Both the position numbers and the translations under genes were made by a program. This document shows, in pieces, positions 3,504 through 45,116 of a stretch of DNA of 64,000 bases. Positions within the stretch are counted from its first letter, which is position 1. The number at the start of each line of letters is the position of its first letter. This stretch comes from an uncultured Cohaesibacter sp. (GTDB taxonomy: Bacteria > Pseudomonadota > Alphaproteobacteria > Rhizobiales > Cohaesibacteraceae). Where the stretch lies: the NCBI RefSeq assembly GCF_963666525.1, contig NZ_OY762905.1, positions 806,001 to 870,000 on the forward strand, given 5' to 3'. The notes beneath the pieces were generated by a model, which did not search any database, was not told where the DNA came from, and saw nothing but the letters and a program-made list of their open reading frames with translations.

Positions 3504-3836
3504 TTAGAAATGGCGGAACCACTTGAGATTGGGCGGCATCGATTCAACATAGCCAATTGCGCAGCTTGCGGTGTCGGATGTCGGCACTGTGAAAGTCTTG
3601 CAATAGTTATAGCTCGCATTCCGGATGCACTGCTGGCGTTGGTATTTGCTGAACACGAGCGCGAATCCATTGTTGGTTCTCAATGGAAAACTGACCAGAA
3701 GTGATCCGCGATCAATGACCATTTGTTTCATGGTCTGGCAGCTGTACTTGGGGCTCCATACGCGTTGGGCAGCCAGAGCCGAATGTGTGCTGAGAATTAA
3801 AGCCGAGGCCAGAACGAGCTTGCCGATCTGATTCAT
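3504..3836 (-). CDS. Small secreted protein, paralogue of the 2796-3182 gene
   Basis: The product has 110 residues with signal peptide MNQIGKLVLASALILSTHSA. Cysteines, the WSPKYSCQTMKQMVIDRG motif and the VFSKYQRQQCI motif line up with the neighbouring paralogue. The 50 bp upstream of both genes also match closely (ccctcct-tttcagg-accttgctttgt … ccccattatcgcaca), so the duplication included the promoter and ribosome-binding site. The protein ends soon after YVES, where the paralogue has an extra tail. Function is unknown; periplasmic or secreted location is inferred from the signal peptide. Confidence 0.7.
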   Translation of the reverse strand: MNQIGKLVLASALILSTHSALAAQRVWSPKYSCQTMKQMVIDRGSLLVSFPLRTNNGFALVFSKYQRQQCIRNASYNYCKTFTVPTSDTASCAIGYVESMPPNLKWFRHF

Positions 3837-4797: not shown

Positions 4798-4821
4798 TGG
4801 TACGGGCGGCGGGAATCGAAC
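4798..4821. repeat. Distal attachment site (24-bp tRNA-Leu 3'-end copy)
   Basis: The sequence beginning tggtacgggcggcgggaatc is identical over 24 bp to 45031-45054. The rest of the tRNA is absent here, so this is the far end of the integrated element. Confidence 0.9.
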
Positions 4822-5347
4822 ACAACACTATCCAATTGAATTTAATACATATATTTATATTCCATAAATTGAATGATACCCATTTTGATACTCATTTTGA
4901 TACGCAAGTTGGTGCGGAAAAATCAAAAATTTTCCTTTGTCAAAACAGTTAGGGAATGCTGATTGGCGCCGAAGTTGAGAATCCACTGCTCCATCTTCGA
5001 ATTCACACTATGCGGACATTTCGGACCTTGGCAGCAACGCCACAATTTAGTGGCTACTGAGTGCGTGTCTGGCTAACGGGGCGGGAAGTTGCCATTTGCT
5101 GCAGGTGCGAGATCTGTGGTGCTGCAGGTGGAAGCGGACATTCGAAGGTTCTCGAAGCTCGTCCTGTCCATCACGGCCCGTTCGGGCGGTATGGCCATCG
5201 GACGTAGAGCTATTGCTTTAGTGCTAGATGCCCTTTTTAACAGAGGCCTTTGCCTGCCTTGAGCGATGAGATGGTTGGATGCACATGATGCTGTGGGACG
5301 ATGCCTATGCTCTCGAATTAAGAATGTTGAGGGCAATGTTGAGACTT
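4822..5347. other. AT-rich prophage end, no gene recognised
   Basis: Apart from the short repeat at 4872-4891, I see no convincing gene. The only longer open stretch on the minus strand (5073-5336) has no ribosome-binding site or recognisable domain and looks like decayed sequence. Confidence 0.5.
4872..4891. repeat. 20-bp repeat shared by both prophage ends (left copy)
   Basis: aatgatacccattttgatac is identical to 44918-44937 and in the same orientation. A second partial unit (ctcattttgatac) follows directly. Position just inside the att site suggests integrase arm-type binding sites; a relic of an older integrase 5' end is the alternative. Confidence 0.5.
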
Positions 5348-5600
5348 TTATATCTGGTTTCTCATTTTTAAAATTAAATAACTGTAGAATATTCCTATTG
5401 TTATTATAACAGCTGCGGCAAAAATTAAAAAAATAAGTTTCATCGTATACTTGTCTCCAAAATTAATACTTTCCACAAAGTGCATAATTATTTTAACGAT
5501 AAACAAATGCGGACTACTACTTCTCATAGTATACACCCTAGATGGAATAATTATTATCTTGATTCTGAAAAGATCCGAAAGAAAATCTTTCTTGACGTGC
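5341..5600. repeat. Diverged direct repeat, copy 1 (partner at 6838-7100)
   Basis: The stretch shares blocks such as tatat-tg-tttctcattttta and, at the far end, …aaagaa…ctt…gtgc with 6838-7100 in the same order and orientation. It includes the first 59-codon membrane peptide gene. The copies bracket the membrane-protein gene at 6056-6670. Confidence 0.55.
5348..5527 (-). CDS. 59-residue single-pass membrane peptide, paralogue 1
   Basis: The ATG at 5527 gives a 59-residue peptide: a polar N-terminus (MRSSSPHLFIVKII…), a central SINFGDKYT segment, one hydrophobic helix (about residues 32-51, FLIFAAAVIITIGIFYSYLI) and the tail LKMRNQI. The minus-strand reading frame at 6847-7026 gives a peptide of exactly the same length that aligns end to end without gaps and has the same tail, which argues that this is a real coding sequence. 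Such peptides can be toxins, inhibitors or small regulators of membrane complexes. Nothing here decides between these. Confidence 0.5.
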   Translation of the reverse strand: MRSSSPHLFIVKIIMHFVESINFGDKYTMKLIFLIFAAAVIITIGIFYSYLILKMRNQI

Positions 5601-6055
5601 TTGGTGCCAATTCGATCAGATTATTGCTTAGTGCCTTGCCTATGTCCGGTTCGAGCCCAAACTCGACATTGGAAATGGTGGGGCGATGGGCCGAAACTTC
5701 TATTCGCTTGCATGGCTGACCGTTTTCAATTGGTGATGCGCTGCATCAAACCACTCCGCCTCTGAGCAGGGACATCGGTAATCAACGGGTTTATTGGCAA
5801 ACTGCTCTGCATACTAAACCTCGTGTTGTAGAGTGAGGTTGATTGAGTTATTCAACCATTAATACGCATTAAAATTTTACAACAAATAAGATTGCCTAGC
5901 CAGATTGGGTTCAATCATGGCGTGGAGGTTGGGTTCCTTGCTACTCACGCAAAAATAATGCCGGTCCAGCGGAACGCTTAATTTCAGGCGTAGACAGTAT
6001 GACCCGACGGGCCAAGATCGTCGAAGTCTGAAATACTTATCGAGGATATTTGCCA
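5537..6055. other. AT-rich stretch, no intact gene seen
   Basis: It contains decayed sequence that partly matches 7027-7540, for example gatgcgctgcatca at about 5733 against gacgcgctgcatca at about 7478. The leader of the 6056 gene with a GAGGA site lies at its right end. Confidence 0.45.
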
Positions 6056-6670
6056 GTGTCTAAGTTTCAAGAAGCAGCAATAAAATGGGGTGATGGTGCC
6101 CGTTCGATGCGAAGGGGCGAATCCAAGCAATTCGATAAGCTTGACGATTTTTTCTGGGTCGTGGGGTGGTTCTCTTTGATTGTGTGCTCCTACATTTATG
6201 CATGGATATTGGGACCGAAACTTCAGAAAGTATCAGATTGGATTGCTGAAAACTGCACTATTTTTGCGCCCCGTATTCAGCTTCTGGAGAATTATGATCA
6301 CCATTCTCATCTGATCTATTCGGCAACCATTCTGTCTTGCGCATCCCTCTTACCTGTATTCCTCATTTTGCTAGCAGTAGCTTATTGGAAGACTGTCGTG
6401 GCAAAAAGGCTTTGCGAAAGTGTAAGCAAAAGAAGAACCCCCACCCATTTATTGTTTACAATGGTTGTAGTTTTTACTTTATTTTACTTTTTTTTCATTT
6501 TTTCTTACTTCGATATTGATCCACGATATCCAGGGAATATGAGAGTATTTCTTTGGCCTCTCTCTCCAATATTTTTATCTCTCTGCGCATATACTTCCAC
6601 TAGGTTTTTGTTCTCGATCTTGGTCGGCATCATGAAGTTGGCTTTTTTACCAGGAGGCCATCATGGCTGA
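6056..6670 (+). CDS. Membrane protein of unknown function, about four TM segments
   Basis: About 204 residues. Hydrophobic segments lie near residues 33-53 (FFWVVGWFSLIVCSYIYAW), 88-112 (TILSCASLLPVFLILLAVAY), 134-155 (LLFTMVVVFTLFYFFFIFSY) and 169-195. The GTG at 6056 is preferred over the TTG at 6050 because GAGGA at 6042-6046 is then nine bases upstream. Codon use is AT-rich and unlike the late operon, which suggests separate acquisition. It lies between the two copies of the 59-residue peptide gene, which run on the opposite strand. I recognise no family. Confidence 0.55.
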   Translation: MSKFQEAAIKWGDGARSMRRGESKQFDKLDDFFWVVGWFSLIVCSYIYAWILGPKLQKVSDWIAENCTIFAPRIQLLENYDHHSHLIYSATILSCASLLPVFLILLAVAYWKTVVAKRLCESVSKRRTPTHLLFTMVVVFTLFYFFFIFSYFDIDPRYPGNMRVFLWPLSPIFLSLCAYTSTRFLFSILVGIMKLAFLPGGHHG

Positions 6671-6837
6671 TAAAAACAAGGTTATTTGTCTCTATAAGTG
6701 GTTGGCCTAGCGGTTGCGAGCCTTACATTTGATCAGTTATATTGTCTTGTTGATCTGAACAGTCATTCCAACTGGATCACTGGATTTCGATAGAATAGAG
6801 AAAAATTCACCAAATATTGTATATATTACCATAACAG

Positions 6838-7100
6838 CCTCTTAATTTATATTTGATTTCTCATTTTTAATTTTAAATACATATAAAATATGCAGATAGC
6901 CAATACAATAAAGACAAAAATCATATTAACAATAAATTTTAAAGTGTAATTGTCTTTAAAATCAATACTGTGAAGGATGTATTGCAATATTTTTATAAAG
7001 TAAAGAAATGGAGTATTACTGTTCACAATCTAAACTCCAGATAAATTTATTATAAAATTTGCTTCTTTTAATATCCAAAAGAAGGTCCTCCTTAATGTGC
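6838..7100. repeat. Diverged direct repeat, copy 2 (partner at 5341-5600)
   Basis: Second copy of the repeat around the 6056-6670 gene. It contains the second 59-codon membrane peptide gene. Similarity to copy 1 is clear at the protein level and patchy at the DNA level, so the duplication is old. Confidence 0.55.
6847..7026 (-). CDS. 59-residue single-pass membrane peptide, paralogue 2
   Basis: A GTG at 7026 opens a 59-codon frame: VNSNTPFLYFIKIL…SIDFKDNYTLKF, a hydrophobic helix (IVNMIFVFIVLAICIFYMYL) and the tail KLKMRNQI. It aligns without gaps with the peptide encoded at 5348-5527 (SSSPHLFIVKII/NSNTPFLYFIKIL; SINFGDKYT/SIDFKDNYT; KMRNQI/KMRNQI). Conservation of the reading frame while the DNA has diverged suggests selection on the peptide. 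No clear ribosome-binding site is seen. Function is unknown. Confidence 0.45.
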   Translation of the reverse strand: MNSNTPFLYFIKILQYILHSIDFKDNYTLKFIVNMIFVFIVLAICIFYMYLKLKMRNQI

Positions 7101-7811: not shown

Positions 7812-8117
7812 ATGTTTGCGATGATTGAACCCGTGGATACAGGCGAACGTATGACTGCCCGCAAAGAAATTCGTATGCGCCCAAGTGACGAAAGCCGTAT
7901 AAAAGCTGCAGCCGCATCCGTTGGCTTGAACGAAGCTGACTTCATCCGTCAGGCTGCGCTCCTACAAGTAAGCGAAGTGGAACGGCGTTCAACGATGGCG
8001 CTTTTGCCTGTAGAAGCTTTCGAAGCATTCAAGAGCACCGTTTCGGCGTCAGGCAAAGTTATTCCGGGCTTGGCCAAAGCTGCTGTTCAAGCGGAGGGTA
8101 TCCTGAAGGATGCCTGA
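7812..8117 (+). CDS. tacA: DUF1778 (TacA-type) antitoxin
   Basis: The product has 101 residues. The core motif (ARKEIRMRPSDESRIKAAA…LNEADFIRQAAL) is the ribbon-helix-helix DNA-binding region of DUF1778 antitoxins, about residues 15-50. The C-terminal part (about 55-101) would wrap the toxin. The ATG at 7812 follows AAAGGA with suitable spacing; a second ATG at 7851 is possible. Its stop overlaps the start of the GNAT toxin by 8 bp, as is usual for these operons. It should neutralise the acetyltransferase and repress its own promoter. Confidence 0.88.
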   Translation: MFAMIEPVDTGERMTARKEIRMRPSDESRIKAAAASVGLNEADFIRQAALLQVSEVERRSTMALLPVEAFEAFKSTVSASGKVIPGLAKAAVQAEGILKDA

Positions 8118-8655
8118 AACACAAGTCAAAGCGGCTGAACTGACAATCTCCCAATTCGACAAAGCGCTGCATAACCGCAGCGCTTTTTCATGTGGCTTTG
8201 AGCCAATTGACAAATTTCTCAAAGAAGCACTGACCGATCATATCAAGACTGGATACCTCACAGCGTTCATGGTGACTGAGAAAGGGCAGAAAGAGGTAAT
8301 CGGCTTCTACACCCTAAATGCGTTTGCAGTTAGTCCCAACCACATCGAGACTCCTAAACGACCGCGACCACCACAGACCATCCCTGCTACTTACATAAAA
8401 GCTGTCGCAGTGCATAAACGTCTACAGGCCAAAGGAATAGGAAGGGCTCTCATGATCCACGCACTACGACAGGCAATGGAGATATCCGAGAAGGTCGGCT
8501 CTATGGCCACTGTTCTAGACGTCTTGCAAGATGAGAACTTCGAACGCCGTTTAGCGTTTTATGAGAGCCTCGGGTTTCAGCCAATGAACGACCCGGACAA
8601 CACTAACCGTGTCTACATAAGCATGAACGACATACGGGCCACGCTGGGCTCATAA
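8110..8655 (+). CDS. tacT: GNAT-family toxin (TacT type), aminoacyl-tRNA acetyltransferase
   Basis: The product has 181 residues. The acetyl-CoA-binding motif RLQAKGIGRAL is at about residues 104-114, the N-terminal CGFEPIDKFLKEAL motif is typical of TacT-like toxins, and a conserved Tyr lies in RRLAFYESLGF near the C-terminus. Family members acetylate the amino group of certain charged tRNAs and so block translation. Its partner antitoxin overlaps it upstream. In a prophage the pair may stabilise the element or limit superinfection; both roles are inference. Confidence 0.85.
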   Translation: MPETQVKAAELTISQFDKALHNRSAFSCGFEPIDKFLKEALTDHIKTGYLTAFMVTEKGQKEVIGFYTLNAFAVSPNHIETPKRPRPPQTIPATYIKAVAVHKRLQAKGIGRALMIHALRQAMEISEKVGSMATVLDVLQDENFERRLAFYESLGFQPMNDPDNTNRVYISMNDIRATLGS

Positions 8656-37776: not shown

Positions 37777-37805
37777 ACCATAGGTGTTAAATAACACCAT
37801 TTCAA
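37777..37805 (-). promoter_or_regulatory. Leftward early promoter with operator in its spacer
   Basis: On the minus strand TTGAAA and TATGGT are separated by 17 bp, and the 16-bp palindrome GGTGTTATTTAACACC fills that spacer. Bound repressor would block RNA polymerase directly. Confidence 0.75.
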
Positions 37806-37845
37806 GTGTTATTTAACGAGAAGATCATTGGAGTTATTTGGTGTA
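37783..37845. promoter_or_regulatory. Repressor operator cluster, three sites
   Basis: Site 1, 37783-37798, is a perfect palindrome (GGTGTTAAATAACACC as read on +). Site 2, 37805-37820 (AGTGTTATTTAACGAG), and site 3, 37830-37845 (GGAGTTATTTGGTGTA), are weaker matches. Centres lie 22 and 25 bp apart. Site 3 touches a TATAAC at 37844-37849 that could be the -10 box of the repressor gene, which would then be leaderless. Confidence 0.7.
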
Positions 37846-37855
37846 TAACTGCACT

Positions 37856-38635
37856 ATGAGTGAAACACTTGCAGACAGAATCCAAGAGCGCTTAGACGAC
37901 CTAAGTTTGTCCATAACTGCGGCAGCCGGGCGCGTTGGGAAAAAGAAAGATCTGTTTTACAATTATATTCGCGGTCAGTCGTCTGAACCGCGCAGGGCTA
38001 CGCTTGCACTCATGGCTCAAGCGCTAGAAACCTATCCAGAATGGCTACTAGAAGGCAAAGGGCCAAAGGAAGCCACCGACCGAGTGGTTCCAACCAATCA
38101 CGATCATTTCTTTGAGGAACAAGTAACATTGCCACGTCTCGGCACCGTTGCAGCCGGGCTGTGGCGTGAATATCAGAATACCCAGGAGTTACCGGGAGAG
38201 CATCGCTCACACATGTCTCCCAACCCAAACTATCCGCTCAACGCGCAATTCACCGTCATGGTCGAGGGGAATTCGATCAACAAGCAATACCCGCATGGCT
38301 CAGAACTGCTCTGTGTGGAATTGGCTGGATATGGCACTGGCATTGAAGACCTGAAAAACAATGATCTGGTAATTATTGAGCGCCACCGGGAAGATGACGG
38401 CACCTTCGAATACACAGCCAAATATGTCTTCCTGAACTTTGAACTGAACCGGATAGAGTTCCATCCTTGGTCCACAGACCCCCATTACCAGAAGCCGCTT
38501 GTTCTACCAGAGCACTACCGCAACGCCCCCGACAAAGAACAGCTCATCCAGGTCAAGGACTATGAATCGGTCTTCGTGAAAGCCATCGTGATTAGCGGCA
38601 TTGTTCCAGCCAACGCAGCTCGCCCATTTGGATAA
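37856..38635 (+). CDS. Lysogeny repressor, XRE-S24 (CI/LexA-like)
   Basis: The product has 259 residues. The N-terminal DNA-binding domain (about 1-70) contains LSITAAAGRVGKKKDLFYNYIRG. The C-terminal S24 peptidase domain has the cleavage-site Ala-Gly at 100-101 (VAAGLW), nucleophile Ser140 in VEGNSI and the likely general-base Lys189 in FEYTAKYVF. It should self-cleave when stimulated by RecA. The ATG at 37856 lies just after operator site 3 and a TATAAC box. Divergent from the cro-like gene. Confidence 0.88.
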   Translation: MSETLADRIQERLDDLSLSITAAAGRVGKKKDLFYNYIRGQSSEPRRATLALMAQALETYPEWLLEGKGPKEATDRVVPTNHDHFFEEQVTLPRLGTVAAGLWREYQNTQELPGEHRSHMSPNPNYPLNAQFTVMVEGNSINKQYPHGSELLCVELAGYGTGIEDLKNNDLVIIERHREDDGTFEYTAKYVFLNFELNRIEFHPWSTDPHYQKPLVLPEHYRNAPDKEQLIQVKDYESVFVKAIVISGIVPANAARPFG

Positions 38636-38952
38636 ACCGACCAAAAACGAACTTTTTGCGATTCATCAATCATTACGTCAACGTTTCCAAGGCACAGACA
38701 TCACATCACGACTTTAAAAAGTGCTAGAAGGATATGAAAGGGTGCTGTCTGGGGCTTAAGTGTGAGCCTAGATCTTGCACAGTTTATTCGGCGTAGGCAG
38801 ACGAATGATGAAGCGCTCTGCCTGCCGGCCGCGAGTATACAGCATCCGACAACGCCACTAAGTGTAAATTCTAGCGTCAATCAGCTTTTCAGCATCCAGT
38901 ACAAAGATAAACTCCTACAATCTTTAAATAGAAATTTTTTTGATACTAATTT
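38636..38952. other. AT-rich gap after the repressor, no gene seen
   Basis: It holds the convergent ends of the repressor gene and the 38953 gene and no convincing coding sequence; an open stretch at 38762-38956 has no ribosome-binding site. Confidence 0.5.
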
Positions 38953-39684
38953 TTAAAACCTCAATGTAACTGAAAAAGTTTCTTTGATCCAGTCTTTATC
39001 ACTTGGTTTCAGAGAATACGATATTGCTTCACGAAGATTTTTCTTTCTGGTGGCAATCAAATTCTCACGAAATAGAGATAGAATTAACAAATTCAAGCCA
39101 CGGCAAACGCTTTTACTTCTGGTTTCCCACTTCTGCAAATCTTCCACTTTATTGCCAAAAAAACGCGGCTCATCATCGACTGACATTCTAAAAGATACGG
39201 CGGATGCATGCACCGCCTTTGAAAGCGTTGCATACTCTTTTTTTATAATGTCTAGACCAAACTTACTTTGAGCAAGGCCCGTATGCTTAGGATGCTTTCC
39301 AAAATAATCAATTAACTCCGAAAACTGATTTCTCCGTTGGCCTAACTCCCAAAGCTTCAACTCAACTGGATGATCCATAAAATAGAGGCAATTTAGATAG
39401 TTCTCTATCGCGGCGCGAAGGGACTGTAGAGCAGAACGCCATTGCCCTCCCCTAGCCAGCAAATAAGAAACCAGCAAGTCGTTTTGGCCTTCGAGCGCAA
39501 ACTGAAGAACGGATTTGCTCAGCAGATCTTGAAACAACTCTACCTTCCATGCCTGAAAGGATACCAGACGAGAGTATGACCTCATGTAAACTTCATTGCC
39601 AGACAAGCTATCGATACAAGAAATCAACTCATCCCGCCATTTTTGCTCAAACCTAGTCTGGTTTTCACGCACCTCTGGAGTCAT
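38953..39684 (-). CDS. Unknown 243-residue protein, HEPN-like features, third gene of the ParA operon
   Basis: The product is almost wholly helical. The middle (WRSALQSLRAAIENYLNCLYFMDHPVELKLWELGQRR) followed by EYATLSKAVHASAVSF is the kind of pattern seen in HEPN and other all-helical proteins of phage-defence and abortive-infection modules. The R-x4-6-H motif of HEPN RNases is not clearly present, so this is only a resemblance. The ATG overlaps the stop of the 129-residue protein (ATGA). The gene is visibly AT-richer than the phage backbone. It could be an effector whose activity is controlled by the two upstream products. Confidence 0.65.
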   Translation of the reverse strand: MTPEVRENQTRFEQKWRDELISCIDSLSGNEVYMRSYSRLVSFQAWKVELFQDLLSKSVLQFALEGQNDLLVSYLLARGGQWRSALQSLRAAIENYLNCLYFMDHPVELKLWELGQRRNQFSELIDYFGKHPKHTGLAQSKFGLDIIKKEYATLSKAVHASAVSFRMSVDDEPRFFGNKVEDLQKWETRSKSVCRGLNLLILSLFRENLIATRKKNLREAISYSLKPSDKDWIKETFSVTLRF

Positions 39685-40070
39685 GAATTTCCTCTAAGCA
39701 GAATGCTGAATGCACTATTCAATCTATTCGATGAGCCACCCTCATCTACAACACTTTCACGTACTCGCTTCATTTCAGATTCATTTTCAGCGAGATAACT
39801 CATTATCTTCCCCATAATATTTCTTGAAGAATCTCTTTCATTAAAATTTATCGGAATTTTATGAGCTTCAGCGAACTCAATCCACTCCGCCTTAGAGTAT
39901 TTAGACAGATGAGCCATAGTAGTAATTCCCATACCCATCTCTTTTCTTTGAATTGAAGACTGAGATTCCATCTTAAGAAGAGAACTTATATTCTTCGTTT
40001 CAACATTCGGAGCACTAAGCAATGCTTCCCCTAGGGCAATCAGTTCTCTAGCGAGAGAGTGAGACTTCAT
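39681..40070 (-). CDS. Unknown 129-residue protein, middle gene of the ParA operon
   Basis: The N-terminus (SLARELIALGEALLSAPNVETKNISSLLK) is helical. A short charged section (MGMGITTMAHLSKYSKAEWIEFAEAHKIPINFNERDSSRNIMGKIMSYLAENE) looks like a SAP/DNA-end-binding or Rho-N-like helix-extended-helix: the pattern SKAEWIEFAEAHKIPI … RNIMGKIMSYL is reminiscent. It is coupled to both neighbours (2-bp gap upstream, 4-bp overlap downstream). It may be the partner that links the ParA ATPase to DNA or to the third protein. Function is unknown. Confidence 0.65.
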   Translation of the reverse strand: MKSHSLARELIALGEALLSAPNVETKNISSLLKMESQSSIQRKEMGMGITTMAHLSKYSKAEWIEFAEAHKIPINFNERDSSRNIMGKIMSYLAENESEMKRVRESVVDEGGSSNRLNSAFSILLRGNS

Positions 40071-40072
40071 AT

Positions 40073-40879
40073 CTACACCTCCATTTTCTTCAGAACTTGT
40101 CTACAAATACTTTTGAATTCAGCTTTTGTGGAGGTATCTCCAATTTCAAACACAGACTTCGCCTCCTCAGCTGCCTCGGCCACTTTTACTCTCTCAGTAA
40201 GCTGCCCATTAAGAACTTCTCCGGGAAAACCTTCCCTAATCGATTGAATGGTTTCAGATCGCTTCCTTGCAGGTCGCCCCACTCTCGAGAGAACGATTCC
40301 TGCCAACTCAATTTCATGATCAAGTTCATCGCAGAAATCTGAAACTCTAGACTTGAGCAAGGCTATTCCAATAGCCGACAGAAAGTCTGGAGAAACAGGA
40401 ACTACGAAGTGGGTAGAAGCGGCTATAGCATTTTGCGTGGGTATTGTTAAGTTGGGGGGGCAATCACAAACGATAATATCATATTCGTCACCCTGATCCT
40501 TTAGAGCCTTCTTTAACCGCCCTTCTCTATTCGGCTTACCCGCAAGGTCTAAATCAACTGTAAAAAGATCTAAATGGGAAGGCACTAGGTCAAATCCACT
40601 AAGAACATCCCGCACAACAACATCTTCAAATGTTTTCCGTTGACCATCAGCAGTATTGTAATCTCTTGCACCTAAAAGATCTGCGATGGTACCGCACTTA
40701 TCCTTATGCTTATCCCATTCATCAACCCCCATAGCCGAAAAGGTAGCATTGGTTTGCGGATCAAGATCTATAAGCAATGTTCGCAGTTTCTTTCTGGCGC
40801 AATAGTCAGCAAAAGCTACAGACAGTGCCGTCTTGCCCACGCCACCTTTCAAATTGATCATAGCAACGATTTTAGCCAT
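40073..40879 (-). CDS. ParA/MinD-type ATPase
   Basis: The product has 268 residues. Deviant Walker A KGGVGKTALS (11-20), LIDLDPQTN (36-44) and Walker B IIVCDCPPN are clear. Length, the long insert (GVDEWDKHKDKCGTIADLLG) and the C-terminal region match ParA partition ATPases. The ATG at 40879 has GGAGG upstream; a longer in-frame reading to 40951 is less likely. A partition role would suit a plasmid-like prophage, but no parB-like gene or centromere repeats follow. Instead two unknown genes are coupled to it, so it may drive a different system. Confidence 0.85.
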   Translation of the reverse strand: MAKIVAMINLKGGVGKTALSVAFADYCARKKLRTLLIDLDPQTNATFSAMGVDEWDKHKDKCGTIADLLGARDYNTADGQRKTFEDVVVRDVLSGFDLVPSHLDLFTVDLDLAGKPNREGRLKKALKDQGDEYDIIVCDCPPNLTIPTQNAIAASTHFVVPVSPDFLSAIGIALLKSRVSDFCDELDHEIELAGIVLSRVGRPARKRSETIQSIREGFPGEVLNGQLTERVKVAEAAEEAKSVFEIGDTSTKAEFKSICRQVLKKMEV

Positions 40880-41175
40880 CACTTTCCTCCACGCTTCTAA
40901 AATGAAAGCTAATGTACATCGCGCTCGCACAATTAGCAGTTCTGCACGCATGCTATGGTTTCACGAAGGGAAAGCCAATTACTTTTCCAACCGCTCTCCC
41001 TAATTGCACCCGGATGCGGTGTGCATCCTGAGTTCATTATAATAAAATACGTATAATAGCCTATTCGCCAATGTAGGGAGCGCGATCCCAAGCCATGCGC
41101 GATCCAACAAATTTACACCGAATCAGAATTAAAGCTCACCATAAATGCGTCGTTTTATCTGAGCTCAATTTGATT

Positions 41176-41220
41176 GGAGTTATTTAACGAAATTCTATTT
41201 GACTGGTGTTATTTAACACC
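41176..41220. promoter_or_regulatory. Second repressor operator cluster, two sites
   Basis: Site 41205-41220 is GGTGTTATTTAACACC, identical to the complement of the site before the cro-like gene. A weaker copy, GGAGTTATTTAACGAA, is at 41176-41191, 29 bp away centre to centre. Confidence 0.75.
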
Positions 41221-41227
41221 GTAACAT
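41199..41227 (+). promoter_or_regulatory. Rightward early promoter with operator in its spacer
   Basis: TTGACT and TAACAT are separated by exactly 17 bp, of which 16 are the palindromic operator. This copies the arrangement of the leftward promoter at 37777-37805, so one repressor can silence both. It should drive the HNH-to-DUF2303 operon. Confidence 0.75.
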
Positions 41228-41259
41228 ATCCTCATCATAAACAACCGATGGGGATCAAA

Positions 41260-41691
41260 ATGCTTGCCGCAGTCGCTGCCGAACAGACAGCTGAAAAGCT
41301 GGTCACGAACCGGTCTGAATTCTCCAGAAAAACAAAGGCTGAAGCCTTCCTGCGGGATGGTGGCTGCTGCGTGAAATGCGGTGCCAAGCTTCACCCGGAT
41401 ACGACCGAGTATGACCACATCAAGCCTTGTGGTCTGGATGGCGACAACTCCCTCGAAAACTGCCAGTGCCTCTGCTGTGACTGCCACAAGGGCAAAACCA
41501 AGGACGACGTGAAAACCATCGCCAAGGTCAAACGCATGCACAACAAGCATGTGGGCGTAGAGACACGCCGTAAGCAGAAGATCCCTTCTCGCCCCTTCCC
41601 CGGCACGCGCGCCTCTGGCTGGAAAAAGAAGCTGGATGGCAGCGTAGAGCGCCGCCGACAGCAAACGCCAGTCAATCGCGCCAGCGAATGA
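41260..41691 (+). CDS. HNH endonuclease
   Basis: The product has 143 residues. The motif GCCVKCGAKLHPDTTEYDHIKPCGLDGDNSLENCQCLCCDCHKGKT (about residues 34-80) has the HNH His in YDHIKP, the Asn in DNSLENC, and two CxxC zinc knuckles. The C-terminus is basic. The ATG at 41260 has GGGG six bases upstream; the ATG at 41248 is an alternative. In phages such enzymes assist packaging or recombination. It is the first gene under the rightward operator-controlled promoter. Confidence 0.85.
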   Translation: MLAAVAAEQTAEKLVTNRSEFSRKTKAEAFLRDGGCCVKCGAKLHPDTTEYDHIKPCGLDGDNSLENCQCLCCDCHKGKTKDDVKTIAKVKRMHNKHVGVETRRKQKIPSRPFPGTRASGWKKKLDGSVERRRQQTPVNRASE

Positions 41692-41802
41692 CGAGAGCGA
41701 AGAGGGCACCAATCCCCCGGCAGGGGAAACCCAAAACATCAACTACGGCTAAAGCGCATTCCGCGCCCCCTCTGCCGGGGCCACCAATCAGGAGACAGGC
41801 AT

Positions 41803-41946
41803 ATGAACCGCCAGAGAATGAAACCAGCAATGAATGAGGCACAGGAGCTTATCGCGTCCTTGCGCTATCTGCCTGAAGCTCTCTTCGCTTTCTTTGGCCC
41901 TCTTGCCTGCCTCCTGTCCGTCTTTCTTTTCACAGGAGCAATCTGA
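41803..41946 (+). CDS. 47-residue membrane peptide
   Basis: A very short gene with AGGAGA upstream of the ATG and a stop that overlaps the next start (TGATG). The peptide has a polar N-terminus and one hydrophobic helix (LFAFFGPLACLLSVFLFTGA). It sits in the early operon, where phages often encode small host-takeover peptides; the role is unknown. The region 41692-41802 between it and the HNH gene holds no convincing coding frame. Confidence 0.55.
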   Translation: MNRQRMKPAMNEAQELIASLRYLPEALFAFFGPLACLLSVFLFTGAI

Positions 41947-42326
41947 TGCAAGATCCCTATACCTTCCGCACTTTCTCGGAACTGCTGCAATTTCTCGAAG
42001 ACGGGGAACTGCATCAGGATTTGAGCAACACGGTCAAGGAAATCAACGACGCCTTGACCAACTATGTTCTGGAGCATGGCGGCAAGCCTGCCGCAGAACT
42101 CAGCCTGAAGGTCAAATTCAAGGTTGATAAGGGCGTGGTCACCATCACCCCCGAAATGAGCAAGAAGCTGCCACCGAACCCCAGACGCCCAGCCATGGCT
42201 TGGCAGACCTCCGATGGTTTCAGCCCTCAAAATCCGAAGCAAATGCACATGTTCGACACCACCCCGCGCGTCGTACCGCAAGGGAACAGCAACGTGCGCA
42301 CTGTTTCAACCAACTCTAACGAATAG
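41946..42326 (+). CDS. Early phage protein of unknown function
   Basis: The product has 126 residues: a helical N-terminus (FSELLQFLEDGELHQDLSNTVKEINDAL), a beta segment (AELSLKVKFKVDKGVVTITPEMSKKLPP) and a proline/Gln/Asn-rich tail. The middle part, 'LKVKFKVDKGVVTI', is seen in small phage proteins encoded with DUF2303 partners. Its start is coupled to the 47-residue peptide and it is followed at 8 bp by the DUF2303 gene. Function unknown. Confidence 0.65.
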   Translation: MQDPYTFRTFSELLQFLEDGELHQDLSNTVKEINDALTNYVLEHGGKPAAELSLKVKFKVDKGVVTITPEMSKKLPPNPRRPAMAWQTSDGFSPQNPKQMHMFDTTPRVVPQGNSNVRTVSTNSNE

Positions 42327-42334
42327 GAATTGAA

Positions 42335-43309
42335 ATGGACATTTCAGCAGAAGCACTCAAGCATCTGGAAGTCATGGCCAACCGGAAACAGAAACCGGAA
42401 CTCATCACCGTCGACCATCCATCAGGCGAAAAGCTCTCGTTCCTCGTCACCTACGATGGCGATGGCGGCATGGAGGCCAGAGACATCACTTCCTCGCTCA
42501 GCCAGTTTGATGAAACTCCTTTGCGCCGAAAGGGCAACGCCAGCTTTGAAACGCTGGACAGCTTCATTGATCATGCGAACCGCTTTCAGAATAGCAACAG
42601 CGCTCTGTTTGCTACCAAGCTTTCTGGCGACATCTCAATCCAGTGCGTGATTGACTATCATGATCGCGTCAACGATCTGGACGGGGAAGAGCATGCCGAC
42701 GCCAAGCCGCGCCACGGCCAGCATCGTGGGCGCCACGACTTCCCTCTTTCCGAGGAATACAAGAAATGGCTTGCCGTGAGCGAACGCAAGGAACCGCTTG
42801 ATACGCGGGAGTTTTCCTACTTCCTCGAAGACAACATTATTGACGTGATGTTCCTGCCAGATTTCCTGCGCCCGGATGGCAAGGCACCAGAAACGCCCGC
42901 AGACCAGGACTTGCTTGCCCTCATCCAGAAGCTGGAAGGAAAGCCTTGTGGCCCTGAAAAACTGATGAACCTGGCCAAGGGCCTTCAGGTCAATGAAGAC
43001 ACCAAGATCAAGGCCTTCTATGACCGCAACAGCGGCCAGAGCAAAATCGGCTTTGAATCTGAACACACCGACGCAGAAGGCAACAAGCTGGATGTGCCGA
43101 ACATGTTCCTGATCTCCATCCCTGTCTTCAATGGTGACCAGCACTACCGCATCCCGGTTCGCCTGCGCTATCGCCCTCGCGCCGGTACTGTCGTTTGGAT
43201 GATGGAACTGCACCGGCCCGATATCTTCCTTGAAGACGCCTTCAAACTGGCGTGCAGCAAAGCAGCCAAAGAAACCGGCCTTCCCCTCTTCTACGGAAAC
43301 CCGGAATAA
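42335..43309 (+). CDS. DUF2303 (YfdQ-like) phage protein
   Basis: The product has 324 residues. The opening (LEVMANRKQKPELITVDHPSGEKLSFLVTYDG), the FETLDSFIDHANRFQNSNSALFA segment and the C-terminal IPVFNGDQHYRIPVRLRYRPRAG…DAFKLACSKA match the DUF2303/YfdQ family common in temperate phages and cryptic prophages of proteobacteria. Its role is not known; it is typically encoded in early operons near recombination genes. It ends 94 bp before the last small gene of the operon. Confidence 0.8.
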   Translation: MDISAEALKHLEVMANRKQKPELITVDHPSGEKLSFLVTYDGDGGMEARDITSSLSQFDETPLRRKGNASFETLDSFIDHANRFQNSNSALFATKLSGDISIQCVIDYHDRVNDLDGEEHADAKPRHGQHRGRHDFPLSEEYKKWLAVSERKEPLDTREFSYFLEDNIIDVMFLPDFLRPDGKAPETPADQDLLALIQKLEGKPCGPEKLMNLAKGLQVNEDTKIKAFYDRNSGQSKIGFESEHTDAEGNKLDVPNMFLISIPVFNGDQHYRIPVRLRYRPRAGTVVWMMELHRPDIFLEDAFKLACSKAAKETGLPLFYGNPE

Positions 43310-43403
43310 CCAATTCCCCGCGGCGGGCGGCTCAATGATTGTTTTGCCGCATCAACGCCTGTCGCGGGGTAGCCACCGAAAACCAGTCATATCGAATGCG
43401 ACA

Positions 43404-43568
43404 ATGAAACAGCAGGAAGAAATCACGGCAGAGCGGATATATGCCGCCATAGTGAAGCTGGCTCAGATCCACAAGATCGACCCGCATCCGGCTCACTATT
43501 GCCTGCTGGAAAGACTGGAAAAGGAATACGCGGCCAGAACTCAGGATCCGTTCAACAAATATCTTTGA
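43404..43568 (+). CDS. Small helical phage protein, last gene of the rightward early operon
   Basis: The ATG at 43404 gives 54 residues (MKQQEEITAERIYAAIVKLAQIHKI…); an ATG at 43335 would give a longer form. The last 17 bp overlap the end of the integrase gene on the other strand. The peptide is helical and acidic. Small proteins at this position can be excisionase-like, but no winged-helix motif is visible, so I leave it unnamed. Confidence 0.45.
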   Translation: MKQQEEITAERIYAAIVKLAQIHKIDPHPAHYCLLERLEKEYAARTQDPFNKYL

Positions 43569-44904
43569 AGAGCGCCCGGTCAAACGGAAGCTCGATCTTT
43601 TTCACCGCCTCCCATTTTTTCTTCAGACTTGCAAACGATCCATACTTCTCGCGATCAATCTCATGGCCCATGAGGTACTTGCGCATTTCCACGTCCACAT
43701 CAGCTTCTTTCATTCGGTCTTCGAAAGAATGGCGAATGCTGTACATGGATTGACCCGGTTCAAAGAAGTTGTTTTCACGGCAGAACTTGTTGAGCGCCGT
43801 AGAGAGCCCTTTCCTCCTGGGGCGATAATGGGGGAAGCCACCGACCTTTTCAGCGATCTTTGCTGCTTCCAGTGAAATCCCGACCAGAGGCAAGATCCTG
43901 TTGGAGTTGTCAGTCTTGAGAATGCGGCCCTCTCGCTCAAATATCATGACGTGGGGGTAGTCACCCTCCAACCTGAAGTCTTCGGCTTCCAGAGTGGCAA
44001 GCTCGCTCATTCTGGCACCTGTTTCGATCATCATGTAGGCGATGAGACGTGCTTCAAGGTTCATCTTCTGAAACGCACCTGGCTTCAGGAACAACGTGTC
44101 AATCTGAGATACCCTAAGCGGGATCCTCTGCCCCTTCTGCTTTTCACCAAAAGAGAGACCGTCAAAGGGGTTCTGGTGGTCTTCGCCGACATGAGCCCAA
44201 TAGTCCTTCAGCAGCGAGCGCAGATTGCCAATATGGCGATTTGCATACTTGCCAGTGATCTTGGCCCCGTCCTTACCGAGAACGCGCTCCTTCCAATAAT
44301 TGAAGAATGTGCGCCCATCCTCTCGGGTGATGCTTCCAATTGGAATGTCGCCACAGACCTGCACAAACAGATCAATGGACATCTGCTTGAGCTTGGTCCA
44401 GTCCTCTTTGCCTTCCTTGTCTTTGCTAGCCAGTTCATCGGCTCGTATTTCATCACGCAGGACCTTGAAGGCATCGGCAAGGCTGACATCCGGTTTGGGG
44501 ACACGACCAAGCAGGGCGTCGGAGTTCGCCTTGCTGTAGTCCTCTCCAGCGGGCAGCTCTTCCACCCGTTTGACGATCTCGGCGAGGTCAGCACCGGCTG
44601 CCAGCTCGGAAGCTGGAACGTATTTGTAGCTTAGTGCAATGGCCCGATTGATCGCCTGGTCATAGCGCCGCGACGCAACGTCACTCGCCTGCCCTTCCAT
44701 TCTCATGTCAGCCCACAGAGCATCATCAGCATGCTCCATCGCATCCCGCCTGATTCTAGCCTCAGCCAAATCAGACGTTTTCAACCGCTTGCGGATGTAT
44801 TTGGCAGAATAGTGAGCAGTAAGGTCGATAGGAACGCGGCGAACATAATACCAGCGCTTCCCTCGCAACTGCAGAAATCGGTCGTCTCGCTCCACTTTTC
44901 GCAC
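43552..44904 (-). CDS. Tyrosine site-specific integrase
   Basis: The product has about 450 residues from the GTG at 44904 (a GTG at 44895 is also possible). The N-terminal RGKRWYYVRRVPIDL is the arm-type binding start seen in many alphaproteobacterial phage integrases. The catalytic tetrad is visible: Arg in ETGARMSEL, His and Arg in SIRHSFEDRM, His in MGHEIDR and Tyr in EKYGSF. A longer frame reaching the tRNA gene is an artefact of reading tRNA sequence. It integrates the phage into the adjacent tRNA-Leu gene. Confidence 0.9.
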   Translation of the reverse strand: MRKVERDDRFLQLRGKRWYYVRRVPIDLTAHYSAKYIRKRLKTSDLAEARIRRDAMEHADDALWADMRMEGQASDVASRRYDQAINRAIALSYKYVPASELAAGADLAEIVKRVEELPAGEDYSKANSDALLGRVPKPDVSLADAFKVLRDEIRADELASKDKEGKEDWTKLKQMSIDLFVQVCGDIPIGSITREDGRTFFNYWKERVLGKDGAKITGKYANRHIGNLRSLLKDYWAHVGEDHQNPFDGLSFGEKQKGQRIPLRVSQIDTLFLKPGAFQKMNLEARLIAYMMIETGARMSELATLEAEDFRLEGDYPHVMIFEREGRILKTDNSNRILPLVGISLEAAKIAEKVGGFPHYRPRRKGLSTALNKFCRENNFFEPGQSMYSIRHSFEDRMKEADVDVEMRKYLMGHEIDREKYGSFASLKKKWEAVKKIELPFDRALFKDIC

Positions 44905-44917
44905 CCTTGATACCCAA

Positions 44918-44937
44918 AATGATACCCATTTTGATAC
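44918..44937. repeat. 20-bp repeat shared by both prophage ends (right copy)
   Basis: Identical to 4872-4891. It lies just before the integrase start, 94 bp from the att core, and is preceded by another related unit (ttgatacccaaa). Candidate arm-type integrase site. Confidence 0.5.
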
Positions 44938-45030
44938 ACAGAAATTCGAGACGACGCAAGACACAAAATCAATCACCAAACATAAGTTATTGATTTTAAT
45001 AAGAAAATAGCGATTTCTGAGAAGAGATTT

Positions 45031-45054
45031 TGGTACGGGCGGCGGGAATCGAAC
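45031..45054. repeat. Proximal attachment site (tRNA-Leu 3' end)
   Basis: The 24 bp identical to 4798-4821, forming the 3' end of the intact tRNA-Leu gene and the integration core. Confidence 0.9.
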
Positions 45055-45116
45055 CCGCACGGCCTAAGGCCTCAGGATTTTAAGTCCTGTATGTCTACCA
45101 ATTCCATCACGCCCGC
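45031..45116 (-). tRNA. tRNA-Leu (UAA anticodon)
   Basis: 86 bases including an encoded CCA. Acceptor arms GCGGGCG/CGCCCGT, anticodon stem CAGGA/TCCTG with loop CTTAAAA (anticodon TAA), a long variable arm (gaggccttaggcc) as in type II tRNAs, and T-loop GTTCGAATC are all present. Confidence 0.95.

Follow-up and report, generated by a model that had tools for sequence, protein, structure and literature searches.

A ParA-encoding three-gene operon that recurs across bacteria and occupies a prophage cargo slot in Cohaesibacter is a probable undescribed defence operon

In many partition operons a small gene directly follows parA. The ATPase encoded by the operon described here resembles the ParA/Soj-type partition ATPases (8ray, 1wcv, 2oze) both in its deviant Walker A motif and over its full length (8ray, E=2.1e-34), but the operon differs from the partition systems in that it has no recognised ParB or iteron array and carries a linked third gene. 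In the part of PMC5379612 available to us, mobile regions close to defence genes are reported to contain ParA genes, which were read there as signs of a plasmid or mobile element. The P2 and P4 phage defence hotspots, as presented in the available parts of PMC9122126 and PMC9519451, are alike in holding exchangeable accessory genes in fixed prophage slots, and one relative of our operon lies in a P2-like phage; they differ in that the main text of PMC9519451, in the part available, names neither ParA nor DUF5677 and that of PMC9122126 does not name ParA. DUF5677 (PF18928) is similar to the third protein of the operon in the region of the R..E helix, whereas generic DUF5677 genes are found without ParA (0/11 loci) and the profile-profile link between the two is weak (probability 5%, E=0.008). 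ApeA-type HEPN defence, which shares with the operon the idea of a helical effector, occupies the same slot in a sister prophage; it differs in having no ParA, and homology of the third protein to the single ApeA-like protein of that prophage (L104) was rejected, as the profile gave no sequence link to it (hhalign probability 0.4%). No description of the operon or of a ParA-based defence system was found in the literature searched, which comprised main texts rather than supplements and left subscription titles largely outside. The available parts of PMC13092281, PMC9519451, PMC9122126, PMC5512222 and PMC5379612 do not describe the operon, and neither ParA nor DUF5677 appears in that of the PMC13092281 main text.

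The window, by which we mean the whole stretch of 64,000 nucleotides from an uncultured Cohaesibacter sp. that was analysed, holds the operon on its minus strand, in the order parA, 129-residue gene, 243-residue gene (Table 1). The gene coupling was as first noted, with a 2-bp gap followed by a 4-bp overlap, a KGGVGKT ATPase at the head and proteins of 129 and 243 residues behind it. The preliminary description had also called these genes AT-richer than the phage backbone, and the GC content of the operon (38953-40879) is indeed 42.1% versus 55.3% at 9000-38640 and 53.5% at 41200-45000. None of the 303 sliding windows of 1927 bp lying outside the operon in 9000-45000 was as AT-rich, while across the whole 64 kb 13 of 621 windows of this size, the operon's own counted in, were as low in GC. 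A promoter scan, with 5 sites in the region versus 6.2 expected, placed none on the minus strand upstream of parA. At 1-kb resolution the GC profile falls again at about 5-7 kb (GC 37-44%); this second AT-rich stretch adjoins the left att repeat and encodes, within 5000-7000, a 206-residue protein without known family that is hydrophobic by eye.

Table 1. Positions in the window of the operon, of its slot and of the prophage features around them
Feature	Position	Strand	Description
Putative left att repeat	4798-4821	+	24-nt exact copy of 45031-45054
Left operator pair	37786-37795 and 37808-37817		GTTATTTAAC, exact; left of repressor; inverted repeat
Phage repressor, left slot edge	37838-38635	+	HTH and weak S24; PHROG 4 transcriptional repressor, E=3.8e-12
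Variable cargo slot	38643-41160		Holds the operon; defined by flank homology to four same-genus prophages
Third gene	38953-39684	-	243 aa, DUF5677-related; presumed effector, invariant R90, E94, Y151, H159
Small gene, second	39681-40070	-	129 aa; 2 bp after parA; presumed adaptor
parA, first gene	40073-40879	-	ParA-type ATPase, deviant Walker A KGGVGKT, 268 aa
Right operator pair	41179-41188 and 41208-41217		GTTATTTAAC, exact; right of operon
HNH endonuclease-like gene, right slot edge	41206-41691	+	Pfam HNH, E=4.1e-6
Tyrosine integrase	43552-44970 (stretch searched; open frame to 45060)	-	PHROG 1 integrase, E=1.1e-30
Putative right att repeat	45031-45054	+	3' end of tRNA-Leu (TAA) 45031-45116 (-)

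As listed in Table 1, the operon is part of a prophage of about 40 kb that is bracketed by two exact 24-nt copies of the tRNA-Leu 3' end; the integrase ascribed to the element earlier was recovered, and the att repeat pair was found in addition. The operon is convergent with the repressor gene, whose true start is likely the ATG at 37856. Its reported position between two repressor operator clusters was confirmed, since exact GTTATTTAAC occurs twice to the left of the repressor and twice to the right of the operon; at up to one mismatch the count rises to 6 versus 0.84 expected, and 1 of 100 shuffles reaches that number. The true start of the HNH-like open reading frame at the right edge probably lies further in. 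At the left end of the prophage (window 7812-8655) a TacA-like antitoxin candidate (PF08681, 20.9 bits at a cut-off of 21; NikA-like, 26.2 at a cut-off of 27) overlaps a GNAT acetyltransferase, and this pair is probably a TacAT-type toxin-antitoxin module.

A similar repressor was present in 8 of 41 genomes, the window's own included, and its surroundings were compared for the four closest of the other seven. Homology to the flanks in these four same-genus prophages ends at 38617-38643 and resumes at 41161-41242, and because the homologous flanks hold other gene pairs or almost nothing in the sisters, the operon is exchangeable cargo. In L104 the slot encodes a 244-residue ankyrin protein and a 512-residue protein with an ApeA-like HEPN domain, the latter a modest match (Pfam 25.1 bits at a cut-off of 24.4; PADLOC E=0.005), and in L106 it encodes a 296-residue HNH protein, for which PADLOC gives a match to type IV methyl-directed restriction enzymes (E=6.4e-36), together with a 453-residue protein. 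The slot of L105 (L105:3790-7264), whose flanks are 91% and 97% identical to those of the window, contains no recognised defence gene and encodes proteins of 832 and 339 residues without known family, while that of L107 is nearly empty (254 nt). Judged by these matches, two of the three other occupants resemble defence genes. As for proteins without known family, the 453-residue one lies beside the type IV restriction-like enzyme (L106:5063-6421), and the 832- and 339-residue pair of L105 is another defence candidate.

The first gene is assigned by profile to the ParA ATPase family (Pfam AAA_31, E=1.4e-40, 139.6 bits; PHROG 164 ParA-like, E=3.1e-55), and its ATPase motifs are intact, KGGVGKT, DLDPQTN and CDCPP (Walker A, A' and B) being invariant in a five-sequence alignment. 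A FastTree tree of 61 sequences divides the ParAs of the system between two clades, here called near (support 1.0) and far (support 0.985), and the far one also includes L014 and L080. The two clades are not sisters, the near one being closer, at weak support, to L044 and other ParAs, so that a single origin of the system is not evident from its ParAs. Two sequences that branch close to these ParAs, L014 and L044, have no recognised third gene. For the small protein no match was found in Pfam, PHROG, PADLOC or NCBIfam, and homologues occupy the same position in L033, L034 and L038. Its earlier label 'SAP-like' found no profile support and has behind it a reading by eye and a short blastp match between the window and Plesiomonas small proteins (E=0.002). 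Among the matches listed from class genomes and viral contigs there is also a set without a recognised DUF5677-like third gene (L004, L008, L039-L057), in which most of the listed members have a ParA with an N-terminal HTH-like extension, seen by eye, directly followed by a protein of 126-168 residues. Homology between these proteins and our small protein, both of which follow a ParA, was unsupported (hhalign probability 2.7%).

The third protein of the window scores 25.5 bits against DUF5677, just below the Pfam gathering cut-off of 27.1, and its relative in L038 scores 33.0 bits, above it. The near and the E. coli-type third proteins are homologous (hhalign probability 90%, E=1.7e-6, over 205 columns). 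When 13 third proteins, those of L013 and L080 included, are aligned, one R, one E, one Y and one H are the only residues invariant in all 13. HEPN ribonucleases have the canonical motif Rx4-6H, and none is conserved in this alignment; that the third protein is HEPN-like is thus a guess. By sequence, no credible relative was found among solved structures in the PDB, a match to 'Antiviral protein MAP' at E=0.44 being taken as chance.

The preliminary description had named co-occurrence of the three genes in other prophages and defence islands as a test, and this co-occurrence proved strong. In all 15 loci returned by third-gene queries (10 lineages, with the E. coli allele of L075 and L088-L092 taken once), a ParA gene lies upstream on the same strand, 0.4-0.8 kb away. 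These loci, to which the window's own is not counted, are L033-L036, L061, L062, L063, L075, L076 and L088-L093; L013 and L080/L081, found through ParA, were left out. L034, from the genome of L003, and L063, on the contig of L038, had both first been found via ParA and were rows in the query alignments, and after dropping them the ParA-independent subset still gives 13 of 13 loci in 8 lineages. By the rule of the script, an open reading frame of 125-180 residues lies between ParA and the third gene in 14 of the 15 loci, and in L062 a 177-residue frame overlaps the end of ParA. As a control, ParA was found beside generic DUF5677 genes in 0 of 11 loci (from 10 of 289 class genomes, with both strands of flanks of at most 1.5 kb covered). 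Searching the 289 class genomes with ParA gave one ParA at 56% identity (L003), followed by the same two genes. Thus, we conclude that the three genes are one unit.

The hosts of this unit are an alphaproteobacterial MAG, Variovorax, Luteibacter, E. coli, Plesiomonas and Candidatus Tectomicrobia; L061 and L062 are relatives in the window's own order and L093 is a viral contig. The close family of the window third gene is rare, with a match in 1 of 61 genomes (its own) and, using the third-gene profile, in 3 of 398 phylum genomes, own included; the gamma-type profile (A11) matched 0 of 398. No third gene was found in phage records with the window protein (P0001) or the E. coli protein as query, and the queries P0001, A1 and P0003 returned no relative from viral contigs. 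In L003, the alphaproteobacterial MAG, the operon lies between direct repeats of 126 nt (99%; 1121-1246 and 3652-3777, 2531 nt apart), as if the cassette had moved on its own. E. coli also has a second ParA three-gene operon (L080:11990-13912 and L081; 283, 137 and 221 residues), which a phage integrase adjoins. Blastp gave no significant match of the second and third proteins encoded there to those of our operon, the pattern of R, E, Y and H is present in the aligned third protein, and this second operon is a possible distant member.

Several members have defence genes near them. The E. coli operon (276, 168 and 231 residues; 7530-9561 in L075) is present at at least 99% identity in 133 of 5,426 complete genomes, at 134 chromosomal places and one on a plasmid. 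Ten of 134 E. coli records were inspected, and six of these copies, the plasmid copy among them, adjoin type I restriction genes, with DarT or DarT/DarG annotated in the five of the six where the view reached that far; three others lie in a lambdoid prophage, and the tenth is in an island where no restriction gene occurs within 6 kb. The viral contig L088 carries the operon between the genes for tail sheath (phrog_23) and tail-fibre assembly (phrog_136); its phage is P2-like in gene content, and we take this position to be the place where the gene fun lies in P2. The available part of PMC9519451 reports a second P2 defence locus with fun. In L038, a Mu-like phage by eye, the gene of a minor head protein stands on one side of the operon and that of the head protease on the other; the corresponding neighbours in L093 encode an ImmA-like protease and an integrase. 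A PifA-like KAP ATPase (PADLOC E=2.4e-74) lies about 2.1 kb from the ParA of L037, where the sequence stops just past ParA and a transposase-like gene, by eye, stands between the two. The protein downstream in L084 has an HATPase match, an HSDR_N match under Pfam's cut-off and no PADLOC match, and the neighbour in L086 is an AAA_14-DUF4143 protein (candidate model PDC-S01) with a weak NACHT match. L036 has an integrase at Pfam's cut-off and, by eye, smpB as neighbours, and by eye the neighbours in L033, L035 and L085 are not defence-like.

A ParA with a small gene behind it raises the question of partition, which the preliminary description had held not to be an obvious role. As a candidate, plasmid partition was rejected because the integrated element has an att repeat, because an iteron array is lacking and because plasmid records hold no match to the second and third proteins. 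In 40870-41260 no iteron array was found, the repeats there being two-copy, namely a pair of 9 nt and a tandem pair of 29 nt (72% identical), the latter overlapping the right operators. The earlier statement that iterons are absent stands, and a ParB-like partner was not recognised either; the small protein, which matches no family, may yet be a centromere binder of a novel kind. A module for partition or copy stabilisation, in which the small protein would bind a centromere in the manner of ParB and, together with ParA, keep a plasmid-like form of the element, would fit the intact ParA, which is of the Soj/delta kind, and the small gene directly after it, and relatives do lie on a 5.8-kb Plesiomonas plasmid and, in E. 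coli, along with the restriction island of that copy, on a 243-kb plasmid. Such a module is nevertheless very improbable. The window's element is an integrated prophage, unrelated genes replace the operon in sister prophages, and the linked third gene would go unexplained. Moreover, 72,556 plasmid records gave no match to the second and third window proteins (P0002, P0001) or to the third genes of L035 and L061; the third gene of L013 gave two, a 4.8-Mb E. coli record taken as a mis-filed chromosome and the 5.8-kb plasmid, on which (L076:3664-5734) parA is broken over frames and the two following genes are open. The window ParA matches at least 5,000 plasmid records, with identities of at most 33.3% among 30 listed, as for any ParA.

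The same Plesiomonas plasmid bears on the idea of a toxin-antitoxin or addiction module that would stabilise the prophage, with the third protein as a toxin restrained by ParA and the small protein. Since the other two genes stay open there with parA broken, the third protein is suggested not to be lethal without ParA, old as this sequence is and possibly in error. Addiction modules of three genes with an ATPase are also unusual. On the other side, tight gene coupling and the invariant R/E/Y/H agree with an addiction module, and many defence systems have a toxin-antitoxin form, so this explanation overlaps with the defence one; by itself we regard it as unlikely. We give still less weight to control of lysogeny or another kind of lysogenic conversion, for example superinfection control via the phage's own repressor or replication. 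The location of the window operon between repressor operators speaks for it, as does that of the L093 operon next to an ImmA-like protease and an integrase; however, elsewhere the operon is found amid tail or head genes, in islands of the chromosome or on a plasmid, and there are sister prophages without it.

Taking the evidence together, we consider that the operon is probably an undescribed prophage-borne defence operon, in a wide sense of defence that is inferred from context. The candidate undescribed phage-encoded system of the preliminary description is borne out to the extent that the operon recurs as a unit, sits in a cargo slot whose other occupants in part match defence families, and has relatives in or beside defence loci; of the proposed role in defence or superinfection control, defence gains from the slot occupants and the neighbours, and protection itself is what we infer from them. 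Counted against defence are the negative promoter scan upstream of parA, the non-sister ParA clades, the modest ApeA-like match, the lack of a recognised defence gene in the slot of L105, the rarity of the close family of the third gene, the lack of a PADLOC match downstream in L084 and the neighbours in L033, L035 and L085. The same holds for L107, the most diverged of the four sister prophages (flanks 72% and 86%, the right one partial), and for the near-identity of the E. coli copies, which implies few independent events. PADLOC-DB 2.0.0 likewise has no model that matches the second and third proteins, and its match to ParA covers a 37-residue P-loop.

If the operon does serve in defence, it may work as follows, the mechanism as a whole being a guess. 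The cassette, presumably expressed in the lysogen as lysogenic conversion, would protect it against other phages or mobile DNA. ParA, loaded with ATP on DNA, and its small partner would act as sensor and gate, and a change in the DNA or in the state of the ATPase at the time of infection would release or activate the third protein. This protein would be a helical enzyme, a HEPN-like or other nuclease whose site is formed by R/E/Y/H, and might stop growth or phage production. In its boldest form the proposal is that a widespread, undescribed immune system of three components has recruited a partition-type ParA as its sensor: ParA would watch DNA with its small partner and switch on a helical effector whose R/E/Y/H active site is new, and no fewer than four unrelated kinds of phage would carry the system against rivals; this we put forward tentatively, at somewhat below an even chance.

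The other occupants of the cargo slot that have no known family are new defence candidates, and the E. coli version of the operon, by its presence in 133 of 5,426 complete genomes, makes the system directly testable. If true, the proposal would mean a new class of sensor in bacterial immunity, in which partition machinery is reused for phage detection.
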